Positions 17,840-64,000 of a stretch of DNA of 64,000 bases are shown here, piece after piece. A model generated the notes under the pieces. It made no database searches. It had not been told where the DNA came from and was given only the letters and a program-made list of their open reading frames with translations. Where the stretch lies: positions 558,001 to 622,000 of the forward strand of contig JAKLGA010000001.1 of assembly GCA_022710975.1 (NCBI GenBank), written 5' to 3'. This stretch comes from Myxococcota bacterium. Lineage in GTDB: Bacteria; Myxococcota; B64-G9. Every line of letters starts with the position of its first letter. The stretch's first letter is position 1. A program made the position numbers and the translations under genes.

Positions 17840-20248
17840 ATGCCTTCATGGCGCAGGGGTGCGGTCCGGTTCGCCTGCCTGGGCTGCTCGGCCGTGGTGT
17901 TCGCCGGCTGGGCCCTGGGTTGTGGCGCGGAGGCGGGCACGGAGTGCGGGCCCGGCACGCGGGCCGAGGGGGACACGTGCGTACCCGAGCTCGGGGAGTG
18001 CGCCCCGGGCACCGTGCTACAGGGCGGGGTGTGCGTGCCGGCCTGCGGGGAGGACGGCTACTGGGACGGCCAGGGCTGCCAGACCGTGACCCGCTGCGAG
18101 GCGGGCACACGCTTCGATCCGGCCACGGGCGACTGCCTGCCGGCCTGCGCGGCCGGGGAGTACTGGGACGGCGCGGCCTGCGCCCAGGTCCCGACCTGCG
18201 GCCCGGGCACGGCCTTCGATCCGGCCACGGGCGACTGCCAGCCCGGCGCGGACGCCTGCGCCCCGGGCACGGTCTGGCGGGACGGCGCCTGCCAGCCCGA
18301 GGTCGCCTGCGGGCCTGGCACCCACGCCGCGGGCGGGGAGTGCGTGCCCGACGCGCCGCCCGCGCCGGACGTGGTCGAGGCCCCGGTGGACGGGGAGTTC
18401 GCCCGGTTCGAGCTGCCGGGCGCCGGGGCCGAGGTGCTGCTCGGCGGCGCGGTCGATCTGCCCGTGGACAAGGACGGGGACGGCTACGCCGACGGCGACT
18501 GGGACGCCTTCGCCTTCGACGCCCCGGCCGGCGCCTGGCTGCGCCTCTCGGCCAGCTCGAGCGGGGCGGCGCTGCCGGCCTTCCTGGTGGACTCCCGCGG
18601 GGAGGGCGACGAGGGGGAGCTCGTCTACCGGCGGGTGGCCCTCAGCCCCACCGCCGGCACCTGCAGCCGCGAGGTGTACCTGCCGCGCGCCGGCCGGTAC
18701 GTGGTGTGGGTCTCGGACTTCAACCAGGCCGCGGCCTTCCTGTTCGGCTACGGCACGCTGCCCGTGGGCGGGCCGGCCTTCGACTACCTCGTCCGGCTCG
18801 AGAACCTGGGCGTGCCCCAGCCGGAGCCGCTGGCGTTGCCCACCCAGGCGCAGCACGATCTGGCCGACGGCGCCCTGGCCTTCTACAGCCTGGCCTCGCA
18901 GCCGTCCGGCGCGGGCATCGAGCTGCTCGCCCGGCCGGAGCGGCCCGAGGGGCTGGCCGAGGCGGACGTGTACCCGGCGCTCCTGCTCATGGATCCGGCC
19001 GGTGCCCTGGTGGCCGAGTCCGTCTCCTACCGGACCTGGGAGTCGGCCGCGCTGCTCACCCCGAGCGCCGCGGGCGGCGCCCGCCTGGTGGTGCGCGACT
19101 TCTTCGCCGCGACCGGCGCCGGGCCCGCGCTGACCTTCCTGGCCCGCCGGCTCGAGCCCACGCCCTGCAGCGCGGGCCAGTGCACCCAGGCCACGGTCAG
19201 CATGGACCAGAGCGTGCTGCTGCGCTGGAGCCTCGTGGCTGGCGACTTCTTCGTGGCAGGCACCTACTTCGACCCCATGGGCGAGGCCATGGCCCACCAG
19301 CAGCTCCTGGACGACGGGCTCGCGCCGCTGGGCGAGGCCCAGATGACCTACCCGGGCCAGGACGCCACGGCCTGGGCCTACGCCGACGCCCCGACCACGT
19401 TCCACCTGTGGCTGCGCTGGGGCGACGGCGGGCCGCAGGGCACCTGGGACCTGGACGCCCGCGTGCACGCCACCGGCGCCCTGGCGGACGGCCAGACCGC
19501 CAGCGCCCAGCCGGTCTTCGACATGCCGCCCTGGACCCTGCGCCCGGCGGGCATCCTGCACTTCTCCGGGCTGGGCGGGAAGATGGTGTTCCTGGGCGGG
19601 CTCACCACCCACGGCGCGGGCTGGGTGCAGCCGTTCGAGGCGGTGTGGAACGCGCGCCTCGAGCAGGAGGGCCCGGTGGTGGACACGAACGCCTGGAACT
19701 TCCCGGAAGGCTTCTGCACCCCGCTGTTCACCTACGTCCGCGACGACGGCCACCACCTGTACTACCTCTACGACCAGGGCGGCGATCCCAGCGGCGGCAC
19801 CTACGACGTGAGGCTGGACGCGGTGGACGTCACCCCCGTCGGCCGGCCCGAGGTGGGCGCGCCCGTCACGCGCAACAACCAGATGCCCAACGGCCGCAAC
19901 TACTACTCGTTCGAGGCCGGCCAGGGCCAGGCGGTGGACATCACCGTGCACCCGGTGCTGCTGTCGGACATCCAGGCGGAGATCTGGGTGCTCAACTTCG
20001 GGGCCGCGGTGTGGGACTGGATCTACTACGTGTGGCTGGCCTCCCCGGACGCGGCCCAGCTCGGGCTGGTGCTGGCCGAGGTCGCCGCGGCGCCGGGCGA
20101 CGACATCACCGTCCACTACCTGTCGCCCTACGAGGGCTCGAGCATCCTGCTGGTCATGGACGCGGGCGGCCAGGCCGGCCCGCTGGACCTGTTCAACCTG
20201 ACGCTGGAGACACCCGCCGCGCCGGCCCCGGCCGGGGGGGGGAGGTGA
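17840..20248 (+). CDS. Large Cys-rich repeat lipoprotein, copy 1
   Basis: 802-residue surface or secreted protein of unknown function. The signal sequence ends at a lipobox-like GWALGC. Residues 30-175 are five to six short Cys repeats of the type CGPGTAFDPATGDCQPG and CAPGTVLQGGVCVPAC. A divider with a DKDGDGYADGDWDAFAFDAP calcium-binding-like segment follows, then a beta-rich region with pre-peptidase-C-terminal-like modules (DAPAGAWLRLSASS, YLPRAGRYVVWVSD). It is not an obvious enzyme. It is followed 5 bp later by a paralogue with the same architecture, the result of an ancient tandem duplication. ATG 17840 is supported by GAGAGGAG. Confidence 0.7.
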   Translation: MPSWRRGAVRFACLGCSAVVFAGWALGCGAEAGTECGPGTRAEGDTCVPELGECAPGTVLQGGVCVPACGEDGYWDGQGCQTVTRCEAGTRFDPATGDCLPACAAGEYWDGAACAQVPTCGPGTAFDPATGDCQPGADACAPGTVWRDGACQPEVACGPGTHAAGGECVPDAPPAPDVVEAPVDGEFARFELPGAGAEVLLGGAVDLPVDKDGDGYADGDWDAFAFDAPAGAWLRLSASSSGAALPAFLVDSRGEGDEGELVYRRVALSPTAGTCSREVYLPRAGRYVVWVSDFNQAAAFLFGYGTLPVGGPAFDYLVRLENLGVPQPEPLALPTQAQHDLADGALAFYSLASQPSGAGIELLARPERPEGLAEADVYPALLLMDPAGALVAESVSYRTWESAALLTPSAAGGARLVVRDFFAATGAGPALTFLARRLEPTPCSAGQCTQATVSMDQSVLLRWSLVAGDFFVAGTYFDPMGEAMAHQQLLDDGLAPLGEAQMTYPGQDATAWAYADAPTTFHLWLRWGDGGPQGTWDLDARVHATGALADGQTASAQPVFDMPPWTLRPAGILHFSGLGGKMVFLGGLTTHGAGWVQPFEAVWNARLEQEGPVVDTNAWNFPEGFCTPLFTYVRDDGHHLYYLYDQGGDPSGGTYDVRLDAVDVTPVGRPEVGAPVTRNNQMPNGRNYYSFEAGQGQAVDITVHPVLLSDIQAEIWVLNFGAAVWDWIYYVWLASPDAAQLGLVLAEVAAAPGDDITVHYLSPYEGSSILLVMDAGGQAGPLDLFNLTLETPAAPAPAGGGR

Positions 20249-20253
20249 CAGCC

Positions 20254-22602
20254 ATGCGCGCTCCCCAGGGGATGCTGCTGCTGAGCGCCTGCCTGGCGCT
20301 GGGCCTGGCCGCCTGCGATGGCTCCGGCGAGGACATGCTGTGTGGCGCGGGCACCGTGGAGCAGGACGGCCAGTGCCTGCCCGAGATCACCGCCTGCGGG
20401 GACGGCACCACGCTGCAGGGCGGGGTGTGCGTGCCGGCCTGCCCGGCCGGCCAGTACTGGGCCCCGGCGGGGTGCCTGGCGGTGCCCGCCTGCGAGGCCG
20501 GGACCGTGTTCGACGCGGGCGCCGCGGCCTGCGTGCCGGCCTGCGGCCCCGCGGAGCAGTGGGACGGGCAGGCCTGCGCGCCGCTGTGCGCGCCGGGCAC
20601 CCAGCTCGATCCCCAGAGCGGGCAGTGCTTGCCCGGGCCCGAGGTGTGCGCGGCGGGCACCCACCAGGAGGCCGGCCAGTGCGTGGCCGATCTCGTCTGC
20701 GGCCCCGGCACCCACGCCGAGGGCGGGGTGTGCGTCCCGGATCGGCTACCCTCGCCCGACGTATGGGAGGCGGCCGAGCCGGACCAGGCGGCGGCGGTCG
20801 CGCTGCCCGCGGCCGGCCAGGCCGTGCGCCTGGGCGGCACGGTGGACACCCCCGTGGACGGCAACGGCGACGGGTACGTGGAGGCGGACTGGGACGCCTT
20901 CGCCTTCGACGCGCCGGCCGGCGCCTGGCTCCGGCTGTCCTCCACCTCGGAGGGCGTGGCGGTACCGGCCTTCTTCGTGCAGTCCGAGGCGCTCGACGAC
21001 GAGGGTTACGCCCTCTTCGCGCGGTTGGCCCTCAACCTGGTCGGCCTGGAGGCCGGCCGGGAGGTGTACCTGCCCCGGGCCGGGCGCTACCTCCTGTGGG
21101 TCAGCGACAGCCACAACATGCTGGCGGAGGTGTACGGCTTCGGCTTCCTGCCGGTGGGCGGCGAGGAGTGGAGCTACCAGGTGCTCCTGGAGAACCTGGG
21201 CGCGCCCCAGCCGACCCCGGCGAACCTGCCGCTCGCGGACGCGGGCCAGCTCGAGGGCGGGGCGCTCCGGTTCTACGCCCTGGGCGGCCTGGAGCCGCGG
21301 GACGTGCTCTCCCTGCGCTCGCCGGCCGAGGGCGTGGGCGGGCAAGAGGAAATTCTGCGCGTGGCCTGGTTGCTGTTCGATCCCCAGGGCGCGCTGGTGC
21401 GCGAGGAGGTAGGCGGCCGGAGCGAAGACGCGGCCGCGACCCTGGTGCTGACGGAGGCCGGGCCGCACCTGCTGGTGCAGGACTTCCTGGTGTCCACCGG
21501 CCCGAACCTGGCCTTCGCCCTCTCGGCCGTGGAGGAGGCGGTGGAGGACTGCACGCTCACCGCCTGCGCGGCCGCGCCGCTCGGGGCGGGCGAGCACCGG
21601 CTGTGGAGCTTCGATCTCGCCGCGGGCGACTTCTTCCTGTTCTCCGCCAGCCTGCCGAGCGGCACGGAGAATCTGAAAGTGAGCCTGCTGGACGCGCAGT
21701 TCCAGGTGCTGAGCGAGGCCTCGGCCGGTCCGAGCTGGGAGCGCTGGGACCACCTGCTGGCGGGGGCCGACACCTGGGTCTACCTGTGGATCGAGGGCTG
21801 GACCGGCGCGGCCGTGCCCGACTGGACGCTGGGCACGGTCCTGTTCCCGGTGCCGGCCCTGCCCGCGGGCGGCGCGCTCTCGGGGGTGGCGGTCGAGCCC
21901 ATGCCCGGGGCGGGCTTCAGCGACAGCGGCCTGGTGCGCTTCGAGGCCCTGGCGGGCCAGGTGGCCGTGGTGAGCGGCTTCGCGCCCCTGGACCCCGGCG
22001 GGACCTGGACCCAGCCGGCGCTCGAGCTGGTCGATCCGGAGCTCGCCTTCCTGGGGCCGGCCCTGGACACGGCCGACCCGGCCCTGGCCCGGCTCGCGCC
22101 GGCCCTGGCCTGGATCCCGGCCGACGGCACCTTCCTGGCGCGGGCCTTCGACCTCGACCCGGCCGCGGAGCTCGCGGGCGCGAGCTACGACCTGGGGCTC
22201 AGCCTGGCCAGCCCGGCCGCGCTCGGGGAGCCCACGGCCGGTGCGCCCGTCGGCCAGGCCGGGCTCGCCCTGGCGGCGGACAGCCGGGCCGCGCTCTTCA
22301 GCGTGGACGTGGCCCAGGGCGGGAGCTACCAGCTCGCGCTCGACCCGCAGGCCGGCTCGGACCTGCAGCCCGAGGTGTGGGTGCTGGCCTTCGGCTACCA
22401 CTACCAGGCGAGCTGGTACTCCTCGCCCGCCCAGCGCGAGCTCGGGCGCGTCGGCCTGGCCGCGGCGGCCGCTCCGGGCGAGGCGCTGACGCTGCCCTTC
22501 GGCGCTCCGTACGCCGGCCGCCTGGTGGTCGTGGTGCTGGACGCCCGCGGCCTGGAGCCCGCCCCCGCGGGCCTGTTCGACCTGCAGATCAGCCGCCTCT
22601 GA
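20254..22602 (+). CDS. Large Cys-rich repeat lipoprotein, copy 2
   Basis: 782-residue paralogue of the preceding gene, sharing its domain order. A lipoprotein signal (LSACLALGLAAC, good lipobox LAAC) is followed by Cys repeats (CGDGTTLQGGVCVPACPAG and others), a DGNGDGYVEADWDAFAFDAP segment nearly identical to copy 1, then the same beta-rich modules (YLPRAGRYLLWVSD). The second halves have diverged more than the repeat region. ATG 20254 has GGGGGGAGG upstream. The genes are 5 bp apart and clearly one transcriptional unit. Adhesion or surface-layer roles are only guesses. Confidence 0.7.
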   Translation: MRAPQGMLLLSACLALGLAACDGSGEDMLCGAGTVEQDGQCLPEITACGDGTTLQGGVCVPACPAGQYWAPAGCLAVPACEAGTVFDAGAAACVPACGPAEQWDGQACAPLCAPGTQLDPQSGQCLPGPEVCAAGTHQEAGQCVADLVCGPGTHAEGGVCVPDRLPSPDVWEAAEPDQAAAVALPAAGQAVRLGGTVDTPVDGNGDGYVEADWDAFAFDAPAGAWLRLSSTSEGVAVPAFFVQSEALDDEGYALFARLALNLVGLEAGREVYLPRAGRYLLWVSDSHNMLAEVYGFGFLPVGGEEWSYQVLLENLGAPQPTPANLPLADAGQLEGGALRFYALGGLEPRDVLSLRSPAEGVGGQEEILRVAWLLFDPQGALVREEVGGRSEDAAATLVLTEAGPHLLVQDFLVSTGPNLAFALSAVEEAVEDCTLTACAAAPLGAGEHRLWSFDLAAGDFFLFSASLPSGTENLKVSLLDAQFQVLSEASAGPSWERWDHLLAGADTWVYLWIEGWTGAAVPDWTLGTVLFPVPALPAGGALSGVAVEPMPGAGFSDSGLVRFEALAGQVAVVSGFAPLDPGGTWTQPALELVDPELAFLGPALDTADPALARLAPALAWIPADGTFLARAFDLDPAAELAGASYDLGLSLASPAALGEPTAGAPVGQAGLALAADSRAALFSVDVAQGGSYQLALDPQAGSDLQPEVWVLAFGYHYQASWYSSPAQRELGRVGLAAAAAPGEALTLPFGAPYAGRLVVVVLDARGLEPAPAGLFDLQISRL

Positions 22603-61763: not shown

Positions 61764-63128
61764 TCAGGACTCCTTCTCGCGATCCTCTCCGAAATCCACC
61801 GCGTTGACCTTGTACTTCTTCATGAGCTGCCAGAAGTTCTTCCGATCCATGCCCGCGGCCCTGGAGGCGCGCGTGATGTTGCCGTCGTGGAGGGACAGCA
61901 GCTTGGCCACGTAGTTGTGCTCGAAGTCGGCCACGATCTTGGACTTCTCCTCCTTGAAGGAGCGCATCTCCCCGGGGAGATCGATGTCCTCGGGCCGGAT
62001 CGTGTCCTCGGTGGCCACCACCACGGTCTGCTGGATCTTGTTCTCCAGCTCCCGGATGTTGCCCGGCCAGTTGTAGCCGACCAGCTTCTGCAGGGCGAGC
62101 GGCGAGATCTCGGACACGTCCTTGTCGTGCTCCTTGGCGAACTTGCGCAGGAAGTGGTTGGCCAGCAGCGGGATGTCCTCCTTGCGGTCCCGCAGCGGCG
62201 GGATGCGGATGGGCACGATGTTCAGCCGGTAGTAGAGGTCGTCGCGGAACTGGCCCTCCGCGATGGCCGCCTTGAGATCGCGGTTGGTGGCCGAGATGAT
62301 GCGCACGTCCACGTGGATGGTCTTGTTGCTGCCGAGCGGCTTGACCTCCTTCTCCTGGAGGAAGCGCAGCAGCTTGACCTGGACCTTGGTGCTGATCTCC
62401 CCGACCTCGTCGAGGAACAGCGTGCCGGTGTTGGCCTCCTCCACCAGCCCGGGCGTGTCGGAGTGCGCGTCGGTGAAGGCGCCGCGCTTGTAGCCGAACA
62501 GTTCGCTCTCCAGCAGGTTCTCGGGCAGGGCCCCGCAGTTGACCGGCACGAACGGGCGGCTGGCCCTCCGGGAGAAGTAGTGGATGGTGCGGGCGATGAG
62601 CTCCTTGCCGGTGCCGCTCTCACCGTAGACCACCACCGAGGCGTCGGTCTGGGCGATGGCCGGCAGCGTCTCGATCACCTTGCGCATGGAGGCCGAGTTG
62701 CCCACGACGTGCTCGCGGTCCGTGTACTGGCGGAGCGAGGTCTTCAGCCGGTGGATCTCCCGGGAGAGGTGCAGCTTCTCCATGGCTCGCCGCACGCGGT
62801 GGCAGAACACCTCGCGGGTGAGCGGCTTGGTGATGTAGTCGTGGGCCCCGGACTGGAGGAAGTGCACGGCGTCCTCGATGGTGCCGTAGCTCGTCATGAT
62901 GATCACCGGGATCTCGGGGTTGAGCTTCAGCACCGCGTCCAGCACGGCGTCCCCGCTGACCTCGGGCATGCGGATGTCGGTCACCACCACGTTGATGTCG
63001 CCGCGCTGGATGAGCTCGAGCGCCTCCTTGCCGTTCGAGGCGAGCACGAGCTCGTACTCCTCGTTCCGGCAAAACACCTCGATGAGGTAGCGGGTGTTGG
63101 GATCATCGTCGACGACGAGGACTTTCAA
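61764..63128 (-). CDS. NtrC-family sigma-54-dependent response regulator
   Basis: 454 residues. Receiver domain (phospho-Asp51 in VVVTDIRMP, Lys101 in YITKPLT), then AAA+ sigma-54 activation domain with Walker A GESGTGKE (about 169-176), the sigma-54 contact loop GAFTDA (216-221), Walker B GTLFLDEVGEI and R-finger region, then a Fis-type helix-turn-helix at about 415-445 (NITRASRAAGMDRKNFWQLM). No sensor kinase is in view. ATG 63128 opens MKVLVVDDDPNTRYL, the normal family start, with CGGAGG just before. Divergent from a sigma-54 promoter 190 bp away (63320), the likely target. Confidence 0.94.
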   Translation of the reverse strand: MKVLVVDDDPNTRYLIEVFCRNEEYELVLASNGKEALELIQRGDINVVVTDIRMPEVSGDAVLDAVLKLNPEIPVIIMTSYGTIEDAVHFLQSGAHDYITKPLTREVFCHRVRRAMEKLHLSREIHRLKTSLRQYTDREHVVGNSASMRKVIETLPAIAQTDASVVVYGESGTGKELIARTIHYFSRRASRPFVPVNCGALPENLLESELFGYKRGAFTDAHSDTPGLVEEANTGTLFLDEVGEISTKVQVKLLRFLQEKEVKPLGSNKTIHVDVRIISATNRDLKAAIAEGQFRDDLYYRLNIVPIRIPPLRDRKEDIPLLANHFLRKFAKEHDKDVSEISPLALQKLVGYNWPGNIRELENKIQQTVVVATEDTIRPEDIDLPGEMRSFKEEKSKIVADFEHNYVAKLLSLHDGNITRASRAAGMDRKNFWQLMKKYKVNAVDFGEDREKES

Positions 63129-63319
63129 GGCTACCTCCGGGGCAGACTTGCCGCACCGTCAACATCTCGAAATGAAATAGAAATACAGAATTCTCCAAAA
63201 TCCGCGTGGTAAACATACCCCAATTACTCCGAACATGGCAAGAGAAATCATCTCGGTCGCGCTCCATCAACAGGCTGTTTCCCAAGCGATTATTTTTTTA
63301 CCCGGAGGACCGGTGGTAA

Positions 63320-63335
63320 TGGCACGCCTCCTGCT
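63320..63335 (+). promoter_or_regulatory. Near-consensus sigma-54 promoter
   Basis: TGGCACG-CCTC-CTGCT. All seven -24 bases match the consensus and the -12 box differs at one of five (CTGCT versus TTGCT). GG and GC have the correct 12-bp spacing. Transcription is expected near 63346. The only nearby sigma-54 activator is the divergent NtrC-type gene. It overlaps an extended -10 (TGCTATACC, 63332-63340), a possible weaker sigma-70 use. Confidence 0.65.
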
Positions 63336-63345
63336 ATACCTGCCG

Positions 63346-63604
63346 CACGAGGAGTCGGTCCACAGAGTCGGCGAATACAGCGGGTAGGAAGGCGGCTCCT
63401 CACTGAAAACCGGATGCGTTTAGAGGAGGAATCGCTGCGGGCCGGCATGGTTTCCCCCCCGCCTGCGGGTCTGCACGAGAACTCCTCATTTTTTGGGAGG
63501 TGCGCTCTACGGGCATGCGGGTTCCCCCCCCACCCGCGCTCATGAACGCATCTCCCACTTTTTTTGTCCTGAGCGTGCCCGGGCCCCCACCCGGGCATTT
63601 TTTT
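63346..63604 (+). ncRNA. Candidate sigma-54-dependent structured small RNA with C-rich loops
   Basis: Proposed from promoter, fold and terminator. A long-range helix GATGCGTT (63413-63420) / AACGCATC (63545-63552), extended by T-A, T-G pairs to about 10 bp, encloses two hairpins. The first (63436-63442/63461-63467, with GAGGAG/CTCCTC at 63423-63428/63482-63487 around it) has a 7-C run in its loop. The second (63517-63522/63532-63537, GCGGGT/ACCCGC) has the loop TCCCCCCCC. C-rich UCCC loops are known in staphylococcal sRNAs that pair with Shine-Dalgarno sites. No Rfam family recognised. A 43-codon frame (63414-63545) lies inside but has no ribosome site. Ends at an intrinsic terminator. Confidence 0.4.
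63577..63604 (+). terminator. Strong intrinsic terminator, plus strand
   Basis: GCCCGGG, 6-nt loop CCCCCA, CCCGGGC, then A and seven T. The T-run follows the stem only on the plus strand, so it ends a plus-strand transcript. It overlaps the last codon of minus-strand sppA. A second T-run (63559-63565) lies just upstream of the stem, after the closing helix of the candidate RNA. Confidence 0.75.
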
Positions 63605-64000
63605 ACCGGATCTGCAGAGACAGCCAGGGCAGCAGGGCCAGCGCGGGCTCCTGGCTGAGGGCTGCCAGGGCCGCGAGCTGCTGGAGCGCGCCGCGCAGGC
63701 TCTCGGGCAGGAGCTCCGCCTCGGTCGAGCCCAGGCCGAGCTCTCCCAGGAGTCGCATCAGCGTCCAGCGGGCCTTGGGCAGGTGGACCAGCCGCACCGG
63801 GTCCTCCGGGCCGAGCCCGATGCGCTCGCGGGCCAGGGCGAGGGCCTTGTGCAGGCCCCCGAGCTCGTCCACCAGGCCGCGCGCCCGCGCCTGCTGGCCG
63901 GTCCAGACCCGACCCTGGGCGACCTCCTCGACCCGGGTGCGCTCGAGCTGCCGTCCCTCCGCCACGCGATCGACGAACACCTTGTAGAAGCCGTCGACCA
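63603..64000 (-). CDS. sppA: Signal peptide peptidase SppA, C-terminal part (cut by window edge)
   Basis: C-terminal 132 residues visible; the rest lies beyond the window end, so the start is not visible. Recognised from VDGFYKVFVDRVAEGRQLERTRVEEVAQGRVWTGQQARARGLVDELGGL (quoted in part), which is the characteristic SppA segment YxxFVxxVAExR...GRVWTGxxAxxxGLVDxLGG. Serine protease of the ClpP superfamily in the inner membrane that degrades cleaved signal peptides. It continues with a family-atypical tail. Converges with the candidate sRNA terminator. Confidence 0.85.
   Translation of the reverse strand, partial: VDGFYKVFVDRVAEGRQLERTRVEEVAQGRVWTGQQARARGLVDELGGLHKALALARERIGLGPEDPVRLVHLPKARWTLMRLLGELGLGSTEAELLPESLRGALQQLAALAALSQEPALALLPWLSLQIR

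Follow-up and report, generated by a model that had tools for sequence, protein, structure and literature searches.

In RsaE-type sRNAs, which carry UCCC loops, a C-rich single-stranded seed acts against the G-rich start regions of mRNAs. A C-rich loop is also found in Pxr of Myxococcus, which gates fruiting-body formation, i.e., the multicellular decision, and whose direct targets are uncharacterised (PMC11928866, PMC5568312, PMC8538405). In M. xanthus, a single C-to-A change in the SL1 loop of Pxr abolishes its function, and the RNA still accumulates (PMC5684412). Two published accounts place the origin of Pxr within the suborder Cystobacterineae (PMC5568312, PMC8538405). Among Actinobacteria, the 6C RNA of C. 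glutamicum has two C-loops (PMC4046766), and in M. abscessus each of the two C-rich loops of B11 is by itself enough to repress eccB4, a gene whose 5′ UTR contains a run of six G; repression was lost once both loops were mutated (PMC10470900).

The locus described here lies near the end of the window (the whole 64,000-nucleotide stretch of DNA that was analysed), and its sequence very probably encodes a trans-acting small regulatory RNA of ~215–260 nt that has not been described before (Table 1). The plus strand folded into two tandem long hairpins with a minimum free energy of −72.9 kcal/mol (z = −4.4), a value matched by 0 of 200 shuffles, and folding of the opposite strand was unremarkable (z = −1.1). 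The two poly-C apical loops pointed out in a sequence-only reading of the same DNA were thus real, residing in two stable hairpins, but the overall fold drawn there, a single closed domain, gave way to two independent hairpins. Its closing helix (63413–63422 with 63543–63552) has a complementarity of −14.7 kcal/mol, yet the fold becomes 4.3 kcal/mol less stable when the helix is enforced; hairpin 2 takes up the 3′ strand, the pairing probability is essentially zero in the window, and the helix is lost in homologues. The duplicated look of the half-modules was upheld by an alignment score of 17 versus −2.7 ± 3.4 for shuffles, a score to which the common C-run and the folding contribute, and by the occurrence of three hairpins in other genomes of the family. 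That reading mentioned neither the U-tracts that follow the hairpins nor the third terminator hairpin, and it overlooked both the sigma-54 promoter and the palindrome upstream of it. The hairpin unit holds the only two occurrences of the loop motif GGTTYCCCCCCCRCC in the 64-kb window (0.02 expected), and a search of 384 kb of the same genome, window included, found no poly-C-apex hairpins with a T tail besides hairpins 1 and 2. Transcription is predicted to start at ~63347, and the transcript would end near 63565 or 63604.

Table 1. Features of the RNA locus and of its flanks (positions are those of the window)
Feature	Position	Strand	Basis or remark
NtrC-family response regulator gene, divergent from the RNA	61764..63128	−	Pfam Response_reg, Sigma54_activat, AAA_lid_14
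Putative palindromic upstream activating site GTGGTAAACATACCCC	63206..63221	+	consensus TGTGGTA-N4-TACCACG
Sigma-54 promoter TGGCACGCCTCCTGCT (TGGCACG-N5-TGCT)	63320..63335	+	fits TGGCAY-N6-TGCW
Predicted 5′ leader	63347..63422	+	sequence comparison; start deduced from the promoter
ACTGAAAA box in the leader	63402–63409	+	sequence comparison; resembles UUUGAAAA of homologues
Hairpin 1	63423..63487	+	folding; covariation, C-loop invariant
Apical loop of hairpin 1, UUCCCCCCC	63452–63460	+	nine bases; closing GGU/GCC
U-tract 3′ of hairpin 1, possible first terminator	63489..63494	+	sequence
Hairpin 2	63495..63556	+	folding; covariation
Apical loop of hairpin 2, UCCCCCCCC	63523–63531	+	nine bases; closing GGU/ACC
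U-tract 3′ of hairpin 2, likely sRNA terminator	63559..63565	+	sequence
Third hairpin and U-tract, ordinary intrinsic terminator, a backup beside the convergent gene	63575..63604	+	
sppA-type signal peptide peptidase gene, 3′ end, convergent with the RNA, running past the window	63603..64000	−	Peptidase_S49; SppA_67K above cut-off

A covariance model (R1) recovered the hairpin unit in all nine genomes of the window's family, each representing another genus, and blastn found the element in eight of the nine. With the same model, G003 yielded an additional copy and two other families gave weaker matches; a match in G075 (L123), which has no C-loop, was a false positive. In the alignment of 12 sequences, 93.1% of the cells were paired and double changes were seen in 29 of 41 pairs, a level of covariation reached by 0 of 500 shuffles, and controls with slid structures dropped to 39–52%. 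The C-loops were invariant in kind across the alignment while the stems covaried. The structured regulatory RNA proposed from the sequence alone was therefore borne out by covarying helices and conserved C-loops, the very support named beforehand with that proposal. The third hairpin is missing from the covariance alignment and does not belong to the conserved two-hairpin unit of the family.

The copy number of C-loop hairpins varies among the family genomes. An additional C8-loop hairpin lies between the promoter and the hairpin unit in G006 (L129 7212–7293), three C-loop hairpins stand in tandem in G007 (L131, minus strand), and G003 carries a second complete locus in which the regulator is not beside the RNA (L134 6730–6868). 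A further single C-loop hairpin in the window's family (L173 ~6065, minus strand, G008:C107) has a Pxr-like short leader and its own sigma-54 promoter. In G011 of family f4, a sigma-54 promoter is followed by two tandem C8/C9-loop hairpins with U-tracts (L127 7996–8190), and the regulator orthologue, preceded by a palindrome-like site, is found on a different contig (L137).

Each of the nine family genomes has a sigma-54 promoter ahead of the RNA. In most homologous loci, the palindrome stands 113–115 bp before the promoter; in some, it was diverged, weaker, shifted or unrecognisable. In the window, the exact palindrome had one match, and the combination of palindrome, spacing and promoter occurred once in the window's genome and once each in three relatives, always at the RNA. 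The product of the divergent gene consists of a receiver, a sigma-54 AAA+ domain and a Fis-type HTH, with HTH_8 just under its cut-off (21.2 versus 22 bits). Its orthologue adjoins the RNA in eight of the nine family genomes (own included) at 62–79% identity, and paralogues are only ~45% identical; in G005, the RNA is not adjacent to the regulator. Because the combination of palindrome and promoter is unique to the RNA locus and the orthologues are adjacent in eight of nine genomes, we strongly infer from these sequences that the regulator is the activator of the RNA.

Several observations concern neighbouring genes and related sites. The convergent sppA arrangement is common to most family loci, and a second sigma-54 activator gene adjoins sppA in L125 (12126–13025, minus strand) and likewise in loci L129, L130 and L135. 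Another site combining the regulator's palindrome with a sigma-54 promoter is found in L288 (minus strand, index 1349 and 1500, G002:C124), immediately downstream of a C9-loop hairpin; this site drives a protein gene and is possibly a second member of the regulon. L003 (2400–2760, minus strand) contains a regulator that is 55% identical and three hairpins whose C-runs are shorter, with C5 loops GGUUUCCCCC, UACCCCCUCC and GGUUCCCCCUC; a pattern search found no clear sigma-54 promoter there.

The RNA matched no Rfam family, Pxr and 6C (RF01066) included. Like the 6C RNA and B11, it exposes at least six C in the loop of each of two hairpins; unlike them, it is ~215 nt rather than ~100 nt long and comes from an unrelated phylum, in a comparison that covered loops, length and the Rfam model. 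It shares a C-rich seed with RsaE-type sRNAs, with which it likewise has no family match, but its loop is a pure C-run without the U needed for GGAGG and discriminates start regions poorly. The 6C/B11 RNA and Pxr are therefore closer analogues than RsaE, the model originally suggested. On this comparison, the RNA represents a new family within an already known kind of sRNA, the C-loop sRNAs, with a well-supported anatomy and a presumptive regulation.

The window belongs to the phylum that contains Myxococcus, as judged from the Pxr match in a Myxococcus locus (L126, G121), and the window RNA and Pxr both have a sigma-54 promoter, which was also present in the Pxr loci read, an adjacent NtrC-family response regulator gene, and a GGUU-C-run-RCC loop, present in both window hairpins as in the C7 loop of Pxr SL1 (GGUU-C7-ACC). 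Hfq was not found in any of the nine family genomes searched and is absent from M. xanthus. When the C-run was allowed to vary, the Pxr loop pattern was found in 54 genomes; an earlier probe pattern fixed at six C found one divergent copy only. These likenesses would favour the window RNA being Pxr itself (RF01812), an identity that we nevertheless regard as very improbable. Even with the threshold relaxed to E = 10, nothing in the window matched the Pxr covariance model (gathering score, 80 bits), which scored 129.2 bits on the Myxococcus locus used as a positive control. The regulator is not an orthologue of PxrR (SpdR): its best match in Myxococcus is another gene, and the best match of PxrR in the window's genome is likewise a different gene. 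Furthermore, the window RNA has a long leader and two long C-loop hairpins, each terminator-like, whereas Pxr has one plus a separate terminator; the regulator gene is divergent, and no histidine kinase gene was recognised adjoining it. Because the Pxr model fails and the neighbouring regulator is not a PxrR orthologue, the window RNA would work like Pxr without being Pxr.

The remaining explanations dispense with pairing to mRNA or with the RNA itself. A short ORF, either on the plus strand through the hairpins or as a 102-codon ORF present on the minus strand, is scarcely credible: a plus-strand frame is open across both hairpins in three close relatives, but in other genomes it is broken by in-frame stops and by indels that shift it, the codon differences are mostly nonsynonymous (56 versus 17 synonymous) and spread over all codon positions, minus-strand matches are interrupted by stops, and the variation is explained by compensatory changes. 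The coding reading was thus rejected. The C-loops might instead serve as a protein-binding platform or sponge or sequester another RNA, an unlikely alternative for which we know of no candidate protein. Its appeal lies in the invariant loop, present in up to three copies in some genomes as in protein-titrating RNAs, and in the fact that the direct targets of Pxr are uncharacterised (PMC11928866); on the other side, among RNAs with two C-loops the best-studied one acts on an mRNA whose 5′ UTR contains six consecutive G and no longer represses it once both loops are mutated (PMC10470900). Another alternative is that the hairpins are no more than tandem intrinsic terminators, which stop sigma-54 transcription or shield the convergent sppA gene, as the U-tract after each hairpin and the third terminator could suggest. 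This explanation is rather unlikely, since termination does not need an invariant nine-base C-loop on stems that change freely, other loci have the sigma-54 promoter ~28 nt before a single hairpin that makes up nearly the whole transcript, and the loop is shared by Pxr, which does function as an sRNA (PMC5684412).

The reading that we prefer, with a probability of roughly 0.7, is that sigma-54 controls a trans-acting sRNA whose C-loops pair with the G-tract ribosome sites of selected mRNAs in this uncultured relative of Myxococcus. The response regulator, phosphorylated by some kinase, would bind the palindrome 114 bp upstream and activate the sigma-54 RNA polymerase at the promoter. The transcript would fold into two independent terminator-like hairpins, each holding a C-run open at its apex as a seed, and Hfq-free pairing of these seeds with tracts of about six or more G over ribosome-binding sites would block translation of a limited set of mRNAs, with two loops providing either redundancy or two contacts. 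The structure, its conservation, the promoter and the regulator neighbour are strongly supported by sequence comparison. We infer that the RNA is expressed and is activated by the regulator, and likeness to the 6C/B11 RNA and to the essential C-loop of Pxr points to the G-tract mechanism.

Broad anti-Shine-Dalgarno control, as initially proposed for the loops, did not hold. In 168 called genes, pairing of the C-loop showed only a slight preference for start regions over coding sequence (−8.7 versus −7.7 kcal/mol, p = 0.009), but shuffled start regions (−10.2 kcal/mol) outperformed the real ones, and a real anti-SD sequence separated start regions far better in the same test (p ~2e-8). A general anti-SD role was accordingly rejected. 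A G6 run at −25 to −3 was found in 28 of 908 genes, which is suggestive only, with C6 runs in 7 and G6 further upstream in 8 as controls; these target statistics rest on 1.46 Mb of heuristic gene calls. The pattern GGGGGGA-N-ATG occurred 61 times in the genome versus 12 for the reversed pattern. Such enrichment of G-runs near starts may, at least in part, reflect mere purine-rich ribosome sites. Since only 28 of the 908 genes have the run, selective G-tract pairing fits better than a broad anti-SD role. No shared function was detected among the G-tract genes, which showed no lipoprotein or secretion enrichment, and envelope or lipoprotein targets, an idea prompted by single examples, were dropped. 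One such site, GGGGGGGGGAGG (20237–20256 of the window), is the ribosome site of a predicted lipoprotein gene and a candidate C-loop target. The ribosome site of the regulator itself is complementary to the sRNA loop in two relatives, reading GGGGGGAACC in G008 (L135 7740–7772) and GGGGGG in G006 (L129 ~7000). From these sites, feedback of the sRNA on its regulator is possible; the complementarity is not conserved in the window.

Within the phylum, a wider search for a sigma-54 promoter followed after 22–52 nt by GGTNYCCCCC gave matches in 106 of 195 genomes belonging to about eleven families, compared with 8 for the reversed control; as a negative control, a promoter with an incorrect N7 spacer showed no excess (9 versus 8 reversed). 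Representatives of families f8–f12, f14 and f15 contained a hairpin with a C-run in the apical loop that begins near the predicted transcription start, and many of these hairpins end in a U-tract. The hairpins of f8–f16 resemble the window RNA in their sigma-54 promoter, terminator-like stem and C7–10 apical loop, and differ from it in usually being one ~65-nt hairpin from the predicted start. In f9 and f12, they adjoin PxrR orthologues (58–63% identical), with the Rfam Pxr model below threshold (17.6 bits in one tested); no C-loop hairpin was found within the few kb read around the PxrR orthologues of f8, f11, f14 and f15. The match in G015 (L169) was not a C-loop hairpin, and a pooled single-hairpin model (R2) was set aside owing to its poor alignment with 3 pairs. 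G028 contains a terminator-like hairpin with the loop CCTCCCCCC and without a sigma-54 promoter (L136 5636–5695, minus strand), and a sigma-54 C-loop hairpin is carried on the same contig (L136 10714).

Because this pattern is present in 106 of 195 genomes versus 8 for its reverse, Pxr looks like a branch of an older class. We lean slightly towards sigma-54 poly-C-loop sRNAs being an ancient class found throughout the phylum, of which the tandem form in the window and Pxr would be two branches, each usually with its own NtrC-type regulator, sharing a C-loop/G-tract mechanism independent of the actinobacterial 6C RNA. Convergence on the nine-base loop and the promoter type could account for the likeness instead of a single ancestor. 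The recurrence of the same promoter and C-loop design over many families, with the loop as the sole constant, suggests G-tract pairing as the shared mechanism, which gives a direct test for Pxr targets. The hairpins described here add families missing from Rfam and would constitute a second lineage, beside the actinobacterial 6C RNA, in which Hfq-less bacteria use paired poly-C loops. If the class is indeed ancient, the targets of Pxr would be G-tract mRNAs, and Pxr itself would be an older gatekeeper recruited for development rather than a recent invention of the suborder of Myxococcus.
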